Assembly: GCF_008831545.1 (NCBI RefSeq)
Contig: NZ_CP044523.1
Location: forward strand, 1,488,001-1,552,000
Length of the DNA: 64,000 nucleotides
DNA from: Halorussus halophilus
Lineage (GTDB): Archaea > Halobacteriota > Halobacteria > Halobacteriales > Haladaptataceae
Direction: 5' to 3'
The notes beneath the pieces were generated by a model. The model saw only the letters and a program-made list of their open reading frames with translations. It was not told the origin of the DNA and did no database searches. Positions within the stretch are counted from its first letter, which is position 1. Every line of letters begins with the position of its first letter. Shown in pieces: positions 48,793-60,384 of this stretch. The translations under genes were made by a program, and so were the position numbers.

Positions 48793-48987
48793 TTAAAGTC
48801 GCGTCAGGTTCTGCGCGCGCGGCCCCTTCGGGGCGTCTTCGATACTAAACTCTACGTCGGTTCCCTCTTCGAGGTCCGGGCCGCCGATGTCTTCCATGTG
48901 GAAGAAAACGTCGTCGTCGGAGTCGTCCGTCGTAATGAAACCGTAACCGCCAGTGTCGTTGAAGAAGTCAACGTTGCCTTCTGCCAT
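48793..48987 (-). CDS. cspA: Cold shock domain protein
   Basis: 64 residues from MAEGNVDFFNDTGGYGFITT. RNP1 motif GGYGFITT and RNP2 DVFFHMEDI are both present, for single-stranded nucleic acid binding. The frame extends upstream by 39 codons, but a TATA-like ATACTTATCC about 30 bases before the chosen ATG shows the true start. Confidence 0.94.
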   Translation of the reverse strand: MAEGNVDFFNDTGGYGFITTDDSDDDVFFHMEDIGGPDLEEGTDVEFSIEDAPKGPRAQNLTRL

Positions 48988-49277
48988 TGCGATTAGACGA
49001 ATGACCGTCCAACGGATAAGTATTGGGTATTCGTTTTCTGTAAAACAATATTTTTGAACAGATGTTTTTATTATCCGGGTTCGAATAGACAAGCGCGACT
49101 GCACGGTCGGCTCTAGAGCAAATCGCAGTCGTTTCCACTATTCGGCCCGTGATTCCGTGCGTATCGGCAATTCGTATCGGAATCGTCCGCCGACCGCCTC
49201 GCCCTTCAACTCACTTCTGGAACGCCTACCACGATTAGGATGGCTTATAACCCAGAAGGCCGAACCCCGAACCAACT

Positions 49278-58558: not shown

Positions 58559-59302
58559 ATGAACTCCATCGACGAGGTCCACATCGCTCCGCTCGGCTAC
58601 GAGTACGACCGCATCCTCGGTCCCGTCGAGAAGTACGGCGTAGACGTCGTCTACCTCCTCGAACACGAAGGCCCGAGCGACGCGCCGTATCACGACGACC
58701 TGCGCGAAGAGATCACCGACCTCGGCGTCGAAGTTCGCTCCCGGCCGGTGGACCTGATGGACATCTACGACGTTCTCGGAGAGGTGACGACGGTCGTCGC
58801 CGACCACGCCGACGACATCGTGCGCGTCAACGTCTCCAGTGGGTCGAAACTCTCGGCCGTCGGCGCGGCCATCGCCTGCATGGCGACGGAAGCGACGGCG
58901 TACTACGTTCACCCCGAAGGCTACCCCTACGCCGACGAGAAACAGCGTCAGAGTTACGGCTACGAGAGCGACGAGGTGCTTCCGACGTACCCTATCGAGT
59001 CGCCGACGCCCGACCAAGTCGCAGTCATGGAGTTTCTCTCGGAGGCCAACACCGAGACGTACACCGTCAAGAAGAAAGACGTCATCGAGTACGCAGAAGA
59101 GGCCGAACTCTCCTTCATCGCGGACAACCAACCGGCCAACGACAAAGCGAAGTTCGCGCTGTTGAACGCGAACGTCGTGGACCCACTGCTCGAAGACGGC
59201 TACGTGGACGTCGAACGCGTCGGCCGCCGCAAGCAGATCACGCTCACCGAAACTGGTGTCCACGCGCTCCGGGCGTTCCAACACAAGATTAGAGAGTCGT
59301 AG
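58559..59302 (+). CDS. HFX_2341/DUF6293-type regulator: CARF-like domain plus winged helix
   Basis: 247 residues. The N-terminal half (VHIAPLGYEYDRILGPVEKYGVDVVYLLEHEG ... DIVRVNVSSGSKLSAVGAAIA) has the Rossmann-like order and a VNxSSGxK-type motif resembling CARF nucleotide-sensor domains. The C-terminal half is a winged helix (KAKFALLNANVVDPLLEDGYVDVERVGRRKQITLTETG). By recall it fits the haloarchaeal DUF6293 family, proposed to be transcription regulators. No CRISPR or cas genes are near. The AT-rich repeat cluster at 59348-59411 starts 46 bases downstream. Confidence 0.8.
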   Translation: MNSIDEVHIAPLGYEYDRILGPVEKYGVDVVYLLEHEGPSDAPYHDDLREEITDLGVEVRSRPVDLMDIYDVLGEVTTVVADHADDIVRVNVSSGSKLSAVGAAIACMATEATAYYVHPEGYPYADEKQRQSYGYESDEVLPTYPIESPTPDQVAVMEFLSEANTETYTVKKKDVIEYAEEAELSFIADNQPANDKAKFALLNANVVDPLLEDGYVDVERVGRRKQITLTETGVHALRAFQHKIRES

Positions 59303-59347
59303 CGGTTCTCCTCCGAACTTTACTGGCTAATCAACCGACGTGAGTCG

Positions 59348-59420
59348 ATAGTATAGGCAGTTTCTATACTATTTACTGTAGGAATAGTATCGATAGTACT
59401 TTGATAGTACTGAATATATA
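59348..59420. promoter_or_regulatory. AT-rich repeat cluster with TATA box: candidate operator/promoter
   Basis: ATAGTATAG (59348-59356) mirrors CTATACTAT (59364-59372). Direct copies of ATAGTA follow at 59384 (ATAGTAT), 59393 and 59404 (ATAGTACT). Several copies are 9-18 bases apart. TATATA at 59415-59420 then precedes a 20-base hairpin (59440-59459). It stands out from the GC-rich surroundings and looks like a multi-site operator in front of a promoter. Confidence 0.6.
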
Positions 59421-59760
59421 CCCCGGAGTACGACTAAGTGGAGGTCGAAGACGACCTCCCCCAACTGGTCGCGCATGGCTCTCCACGACGGGCCGCCCCG
59501 GTCCGTCGTCTTCCAGTTACGTGCCTGCCTCTCGGCCCCCGTAGCACCGGACGGTGATTCGTCGCCCTCCCCAGACGGTCGCCTCCGGTTGCCCTCCCAT
59601 TGGCCCTCCCAACGGTCGCTGTGCCGTCGCCGGTCCCCGCTGGCGCTTCACAGACTCGCCAGTTCCCCGCTGGCGCTCTTCGCCCGCCGACGCTCGTCGG
59701 CACCGTCAGTTCCCCGCTGACGCTACTCCCCCACGCTTCTGTCGCAGAGATGTGCTTGCT
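59421..59760 (+). ncRNA. Candidate non-coding RNA downstream of the AT-rich promoter
   Basis: A TATA box at 59415-59420 would start a transcript near 59443, at a hairpin GGAGGTCG-AAGA-CGACCTCC (59440-59459). No acidic protein frame follows; the one 81-residue frame (59475-59720) is Arg/Ser/Pro-rich. The region has three copies of a 14-base TCCCCGCTGGCGCT unit (59634, 59664, 59711; the last with one change) and other short repeats. Evidence is only compositional, so this is a hypothesis. Confidence 0.3.
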
Positions 59761-60384
59761 TCAGTCGTCCCGGAGCATTTTCTGTACGTTCACGACGCGC
59801 TCGGAGAGCGCGTCGCCTGCGATGGTAAACCGCGAGACGAACGGCCGGTCGGCTTCGTCGTTTGCCTGTGCTACGACCAGTTCCGGGAGGTCTCCGAACA
59901 CTCGTTCGAGTCCCGCCAGCACCTCGTCGGGGTCGGAGACTCGGAGTTCGACTTCGGTGAGATGCCCGGAATCCCAGTCTCCCAACGACGACTCCAGGTC
60001 GCTTCCGTCTCGATGCACCTCCACGCGAAAGCCCCACGGCGTCATCACGAACGGTCGGCGGCCGTCGGTGTCGCGCACCGACCACCCAACGTCTTCGGCG
60101 CGCGCGACTACTCGGTCGAACTCACTCGTACAGACGCCGAGGTGGTCGAAGTGCGGTCGTGTTCCCGGCGCGAGTGTGACATCGACGTAGCCCCGTCTGT
60201 GACTTTGCAAACGAAGTCGGAAGTCTTCGGGAGCCTCGTCGTCAGGTGCGAGCACGACCGATTCGCCGGAGACGTGCCCGAACTTCTGACGAAGCGGGAC
60301 GCCGTGGTCGGCCAGCGCGCGTCGTGCGCTGGCGACGGCGGGCGTGTTGAAGTGCAGATGGAAGAGTCGCGTCTGGTGGTGCAT
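59761..60384 (-). CDS. VOC superfamily (glyoxalase/dioxygenase-like) protein
   Basis: 207 residues. Two VOC-like beta-alpha-beta3 units: TRLFHLHFNTPAVASARRALADHG and HFDHLGVCTSEFDRVVARAEDVGW, with MTPWGFRVEVHRDG providing a metal-site Glu and His. Metal-dependent activity is likely but the substrate is unknown. The C-terminal domain (VELRVSDPDEVLAGLERVFG) is an additional unit. Confidence 0.75.
   Translation of the reverse strand: MHHQTRLFHLHFNTPAVASARRALADHGVPLRQKFGHVSGESVVLAPDDEAPEDFRLRLQSHRRGYVDVTLAPGTRPHFDHLGVCTSEFDRVVARAEDVGWSVRDTDGRRPFVMTPWGFRVEVHRDGSDLESSLGDWDSGHLTEVELRVSDPDEVLAGLERVFGDLPELVVAQANDEADRPFVSRFTIAGDALSERVVNVQKMLRDD

Follow-up and report, generated by a model that had tools for sequence, protein, structure and literature searches.

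The DNA analysed here (the window) is a 64,000-nt stretch of the Halorussus halophilus genome. It contains a DUF6293/HFX_2341-like regulator gene (58559..59302, plus strand, 247 aa), followed by five ATAGTA half-sites, a promoter, a hairpin and about 300 nt of C-rich DNA, with a convergent ORF (59761-60384, minus strand) downstream of the C-rich stretch. The protein encoded at 58559 matches PF19810 (E 3.3e-44, 150.6 bits against a cut-off of 30) and PF22665 (E 8.3e-37, 126.1 bits against a cut-off of 27); both Pfam cut-offs are passed, and the protein is a member of the DUF6293/HFX_2341 family. Its predicted architecture combines a CARF-like N domain and a winged-helix C domain. The structure model of the protein is of medium quality (mean pLDDT 68), and its top Foldseek matches, Can2, SSO1393, Cam1, Csa3 and Csm6, support a CARF-like fold. 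The initial annotation had called the gene in front of the array a CARF-like regulator, and the Pfam and Foldseek matches bear this out. A PDB sequence search found no relative of weight.

The ATAGTA array and its promoter

Five ATAGTA sites, including an inverted pair, had been described initially, and all were located at 59348-59409. Numbered by their lattice positions relative to the promoter, they are half-site 1 at 59348..59353 (plus strand, -75), the inverted half-site 2 at 59367..59372 (minus strand, -56), half-site 3 at 59384..59389 (plus strand, -39), half-site 4 at 59393..59398 (plus strand, -30) and half-site 5 at 59404..59409 (plus strand, -19, aligned), which occupies the BRE position and abuts the core promoter. 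The arms of the inverted pair (59343-59356/59364-59377) are 86% complementary. The core promoter, CTGAATATATA (59410..59420, plus strand), is a TATA element that reads TTGAATA or CTGAATA in relatives. The TATATA and the hairpin with which the array was said to end are indeed there, at 59415-59420 (within the core promoter) and 59440-59459. Only one further copy of ATAGTA occurs in the window; the total of six is not rare (10 of 100 shuffles reach 6), and it is the clustering that is rare. A strict ATAGTAN{2,4}ATAGTA pattern has a single match in the 4.45 Mb genome, at the array, and a backwards-read control also has one; no further ATAGTA arrays were found elsewhere in this genome. A comparison of 34 loci placed the half-sites at fixed distances from the TGAATA core promoter, on a 9-bp lattice, with neighbour spacings most often of 9 (15 times), 19 (12 times), 10 (11 times) and 17 (8 times). 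A lone ATAGTA pair at its locus L272 lies beside two ORFs that read, from their translations, as subtilisin-like proteases.

A predicted C-rich RNA

Downstream of the promoter we predict a C-rich non-coding RNA (C-RNA; 59438..59750, plus strand), its start being deduced from the promoter spacing and its probable end set by the last hairpins and the position of the convergent gene. The plus strand of this region folds better than 100 of 100 shuffles (z -4.7), and the position is conserved; an Rfam search found no match at gathering score. The GC skew at 59401-59700 (-0.194) is the most negative among the 300-nt steps of the window. The region had also been called the strongest composition break in the window, which was not confirmed by GC content: the lowest 300-nt step has a GC content of 0.490 (48901-49200), below the 0.543 found at 59101-59400.

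At the 5' end of the predicted RNA there is a perfect hairpin, GGAGGTCG-AAGA-CGACCTCC (59440..59459, plus strand). This start hairpin, GGAGG...CCUCC, recurs at a near-constant distance 3' of the promoter in 13 distinct Halorussus sequences. In their alignment 98.1% of the cells are paired and two pairs have both sides changed, a value matched by 14 of 500 shuffles. For the RNAs of Haladaptatus, Halocatena, Actinarchaeum and family f4, the predicted fold pairs the 5' start with a downstream stretch, and the sequences of this closing helix differ between these lineages. Repeated units in the C-rich stretch, another feature of the initial annotation, are present as TCCCCGCTGGCGCT at 59634 and 59664 with a one-change copy at 59711; matches to TCCCCGCTGGCGCT with up to three mismatches number 16 in the window, which is near chance. 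A protein gene in 59303-59760 was considered and rejected, in line with the earlier statement that there is no credible protein frame. The best ORFs, of 81 and 89 aa, are not conserved, and tblastn against the remaining 33 C-RNAs gave no convincing relative of either (lowest E 0.22 and 0.07). With its own predicted promoter, its structure and no conserved ORF, the C-RNA may be a separate non-coding transcript. The initial observation is partly confirmed, and its interpretation as an operator with a non-protein gene is supported at the level of sequence.

Conservation and association with DUF6293

When this DNA was compared with 59 genomes, the part comprising array, promoter and hairpin was recovered at 69-76% identity in genus and family relatives. 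The DUF6293 gene was present in 9 of 10 such stretches inspected (L002-L010, L016), being absent in L009. The initial annotation had proposed searching relatives for the operator next to DUF6293 genes, and the array is conserved there in several genera: array and C-RNA form a unit beside DUF6293 in Halorussus, Haladaptatus, Halocatena, Halomarina, Actinarchaeum and two f4 genera. Other families have a comparable array on the upstream side of DUF6293, running as far as the start codon and accompanied by a promoter of this type in divergent orientation. In four Halorussus-group genomes a search did not find the DUF6293 protein (it included no positive genome; the same query protein finds relatives in another search), and array and C-RNA are absent in all four. 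In these genomes the flanking DUF7125 and FKBP genes directly adjoin, and the joint absence may represent one deletion of neighbours. In a Haladaptatus genome (L138/L017, G024), some 1.6 kb separate array and promoter from DUF6293, apparently owing to an inserted transposon-like gene.

A conserved candidate RNA complementary to the C-RNA

The word CGCTTCGGCCCTCC, common to many C-RNAs, is present in 37 of 40 genomes, against 2 of 40 for its backwards control. Thirty loci were retrieved with this word, and 17 of them contain a second candidate RNA of about 110 nt with its own TATA box and extreme conservation (G-RNA). It consists of a hairpin with a UUGGAGGGC loop, a linker GCGGGGACCAAUUCAGGGCGGC and a variable 3' hairpin, followed by pyrimidines. 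The possibility that this conserved 14-mer RNA is a C-rich homologue of the C-RNA was rejected, because it is the G-rich strand that carries the TATA box (TTTAAG, some 27 nt ahead of TGACG) and the pyrimidine-rich end. Since the TATA box and the fixed start lie on the strand opposite CGCTTCGGCCCTCC, the transcript should be G-rich, and the repeats near the array are therefore the reverse complement of G-RNA. Both the TCCCCGCTGGCGCT units here and the CTTCGGCCCTCC units found in relatives are the reverse complement of its near-invariant part. A covariance model of G-RNA matched 143 of 145 genomes from the order, mostly with a single copy, though often with two in family f5. In a phylum sample of 147 genomes it matched 24, every one of them from the same order, and no match was found outside the order. 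An Rfam search of the G-RNA loci found no match at gathering score. The copy of the genome studied here is at G000:C1:1053451-1053560, on the minus strand (L186/L239). The C-rich repeats look like antisense copies of a near-universal RNA, a relation beyond the single-sequence view of the initial annotation.

Six sites of the window C-RNA, all on the plus strand, are complementary to this partner. Two face the G-RNA loop: GCCCTCC at 59591..59597 and TTGGCCCTCC, with one G-U, at 59600..59609. The longest is an 18-nt site complementary to the genome's own G-RNA (GGTCCCCGCTGGCGCTTC, one G-U pair, 59632..59649), with a predicted duplex energy of -38.9 kcal/mol. It is followed by a 14-nt site (TCCCCGCTGGCGCT, 59664..59677) whose loop TTCCCCG is mostly unpaired, a weaker site (CCCGCCGACGCT, 59683..59694) and a perfect 14-nt site, also with a mostly unpaired loop (TCCCCGCTGACGCT, 59711..59724). 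A large part of each site lies inside predicted C-RNA stems (mean unpaired probability 0.36-0.69).

Complementarity was assessed for 34 distinct C-RNAs, using the G-RNA copy of the same genome for 9 and that of a relative for 25. Outside this set are the copies from species present in two collections (L031, L032, L042, L043, L049, L053), L045/L138 (array far from the gene), L052 (C-sites without array) and all divergent DUF6293 loci; the distinct loci among these are still included in the DUF6293 counts over 103 loci given below. For complementary 9-mers, 29 of the 34 C-RNAs had at most 10 of 1000 dinucleotide shuffles reaching their value, the five missing this mark being L033, L035, L044, L047 (cut by a contig end) and L074. 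With the G-RNA read backwards as a control, 28 of the 34 had no 9-mer at all, and the repetitive L067 had 16. Because the G-RNA had been found via a word shared with the C-RNAs, which makes the test partly circular, it was repeated on the part after the search word. Without the 14-mer by which G-RNA had been detected, 21 of the 34 C-RNAs remained at p<=0.05; the combined p without the search word is 7e-23, a value that ignores the relatedness of the C-RNA sequences, because of which the p-values are not independent. In total there were 103 complementary sites in the 34 C-RNAs, compared to 13-25 in ten shuffled sets, with complementarity of up to 24 nt. It falls mainly on the G-RNA loop, the 3' arm and the linkers GCGGGGACC and CAGGGCGGC, with little on the 3' hairpin. 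Mismatches that keep a G-U pair, with the C-strand taken as RNA, made up 17 of 43, against 8 of 81 in shuffles (p 2.5e-4). As judged from these comparisons, the predicted C-RNA carries several sites complementary to one candidate sRNA. The notion that the C-rich loops are general Shine-Dalgarno binders was set aside, because the complementarity extends far past CCUCC.

Two or more half-sites lie downstream of the gene at 32 of 103 distinct DUF6293 loci; complementary sites were found on the promoter's strand in 28 of these 32 and on the opposite strand in none. A site within 600 nt was found at 68 of the 103 loci, against 15 of 103 in the backwards control and 8 of 296 distal tile-strands, and two or more sites on one strand at 28 of 103, against 1 in the backwards control and 2 of 296 distal tile-strands. 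Both strands were scanned at the 103 loci, so the reverse complement was not usable as a control. When the search word was left out, 48 DUF6293 loci had a site and single sites were still enriched (p 4.5e-8); site pairs near DUF6293 (8 of 412 against 1 of 296 tile-strands) were not significantly so (p 0.088). At several loci without the array the sites are placed differently: Haloprofundus, Halogeometricum and f5 relatives have them upstream of DUF6293 and on its strand. At the f7 DUF6293 loci, where the array was not seen, repeated complementary units are convergent with DUF6293, in the apparent 3' UTR of a convergent gene.

Discussion

From the array, the promoter lattice, the conserved C-RNA, its complementarity to G-RNA and the linkage to DUF6293, we infer a chain that runs from protein binding and transcription to pairing in the cell. 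The ATAGTA array would be the operator-promoter of the C-RNA, whose hairpin loops and linkers would present several reverse-complement copies of G-RNA. These would pair with G-RNA at its exposed GGAGGG loop and its GCGGGGACC linker, loop contacts coming first, and the pairing would titrate or inactivate G-RNA. The adjacent DUF6293 protein, with its CARF-like sensor and winged helix, would bind the 9-bp-phased ATAGTAT half-sites and switch the promoter. It is most likely a repressor, since the last half-site abuts the promoter, which makes repression likelier than activation, and a nucleotide ligand may set its binding. For an RNA that carries many sequences complementary to one single-copy sRNA, titration is the most economical function. 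Overall, we consider it reasonably probable that the C-RNA is an antisense sponge that titrates G-RNA and is switched by the adjacent CARF regulator.

The sites might instead be UTR targets through which G-RNA regulates neighbouring mRNAs, of DUF6293 or of convergent genes, with no free sponge involved. This would suit the C-sites that follow stop codons of other genes (L182, L192, L195, L211), the tandem row of sites after a gene in L261 and the sites just upstream of DUF6293 in Haloprofundus-like loci. Given the C-sites located after stop codons elsewhere, an additional action of G-RNA on 3' UTRs is possible. The UTR-target reading fits poorly with Halorussus and others, where a conserved promoter and array separate the DUF6293 stop codon from a C-RNA that has a fixed start hairpin or closing helix, and with the persistence of the pair while its position relative to DUF6293 shifts between families. 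As a full account of the locus we find it rather unlikely. We regard as very improbable a CsrB-like role, in which an RNA-binding protein is bound by the C-rich motifs and the complement to G-RNA is incidental. The repeated hairpins and their C-rich loops are reminiscent of protein-titrating RNAs, but complementarity of up to 24 nt, in separate segments and with an enrichment of G-U-compatible changes, is what base pairing would be expected to leave, unlike recognition of the C-strand by a protein.

The control of the promoter could be questioned separately, as the array might be the operator of another regulator with DUF6293 linked by position only. There are DUF6293 and C-RNA loci without an ATAGTAT array (f7, Haloferacaceae-like), and where ATAGTA-type sites lie upstream of DUF6293, they may belong to winged-helix genes in divergent orientation. 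On the other hand, where the array is not downstream it extends upstream to the DUF6293 start codon, as expected for auto-regulation, and it disappears together with DUF6293 in the four genomes described above; we consider a different regulator unlikely. That GC-rich intergenic DNA with C-runs happens to neighbour an unrelated AT-rich promoter is hardly credible. C content alone does yield the 13-25 sites of the shuffled sets, and approximate unit matches in the window are near chance, but the shuffled and reversed controls and the lattice fixed across genera contradict such a coincidence.

An antisense sponge under a CARF regulator would have parallels in bacteria. SroC and AgvB are reportedly sponge or anti-sRNA RNAs with sites complementary to a regulatory sRNA, which they can titrate. 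The C-RNA resembles them as a separate predicted RNA with sites complementary to an sRNA; it differs in being archaeal, in its many loop-presented copies, in adjoining a gene for a CARF-type regulator and in its target, a near-universal single-copy RNA of an order. In a literature search for archaeal sponge RNAs, none of the matches listed concerned an archaeon by title. No description of the array/C-RNA/G-RNA system was found in the literature searched, nor were the tested G-RNA and C-RNA words found there in a haloarchaeal context.

The DUF6293 protein HFX_2341 ('crr') of Haloferax mediterranei, of the same family as the 58559 protein by name and Pfam, is described in the accessible part of its report as a CARF/Csa3-like global regulator, mostly a repressor of many genes (PMC11434293). 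That part mentions no binding site or operator, adjacent RNA or RNA target. It also reports that no other hotspot of self-spacer acquisition in H. mediterranei is as strong as the HFX_2341 locus (PMC11434293); a C-rich RNA locus close by might be relevant here. The fold predicted here is like that of Csa3a and the CARF-winged-helix regulators of Sulfolobales (Foldseek 2wte_A, E 2.1e-4). Unlike Csa3a, DUF6293 is not tied to cas genes here and is proposed to control an RNA promoter.

The G-RNA candidate joins other haloarchaeal sRNAs, among them sRNA132, SHOxi, sRNA_61 and STRG.2577.4 of Haloferax volcanii. Excerpts of the respective reports describe sRNA132 as confined to Haloferax (PMC6560208), an intergenic 111-nt RNA as the most expressed sRNA of H. 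volcanii (PMC5892119), and H. volcanii sRNAs that are 111 nt long, very abundant or ribosome-associated (PMC5892119, PMC12482152). The 111-nt sRNA is close to the 110-nt G-RNA model, the two being compared by length only. Going by the excerpt available, H225.2R (19 genomes) and hts10 (18 genomes) are widely conserved H. volcanii sRNAs (PMC3956466), and either could be G-RNA.

A wider reading is an order-wide haloarchaeal RNA circuit, in which a near-universal and possibly very abundant G-rich sRNA is met by dedicated antisense sponges that arose repeatedly at DUF6293 loci and elsewhere, and a sponge is the means by which a CARF-type nucleotide sensor controls a global sRNA, with no part played by CRISPR. 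We put this forward tentatively, as a reading not far short of an even chance; if it is true, we know of no earlier sponge RNA system from Archaea. An orphan haloarchaeal CARF regulator would gain a binding site and an output, a near-universal haloarchaeal RNA without an Rfam match would be exposed, and a sponge-type RNA circuit would be placed in Archaea.

Complementary sites were also noted at other loci. In the genome studied here, one follows the stop codon of a DUF7344 gene (L211). Another, at L222, comes after the stop codon of a gene for an HVO_1552-like regulator, from which a promoter-like stretch separates it. L222 belongs with L194, L193 and L264 to a second kind of C-rich RNA candidate; these lie downstream of an HVO_1552-like winged-helix gene and share a conserved 'CTAAAAC...TTTGAGCTTACGG' promoter region as well as a CTTCGGCCCTCC-type site. 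Genes that resemble each other in different Halorussus-group genomes retain CGCTTCGGCCCTCC after the stop codon (L182 and L192, L211 and L191), and these sites are possible G-RNA targets in 3' UTRs. Genes in L261 (G018), L262 (G029), L082 and L102 are followed by tandem rows of short units with complementarity to the loop or the linker of G-RNA.
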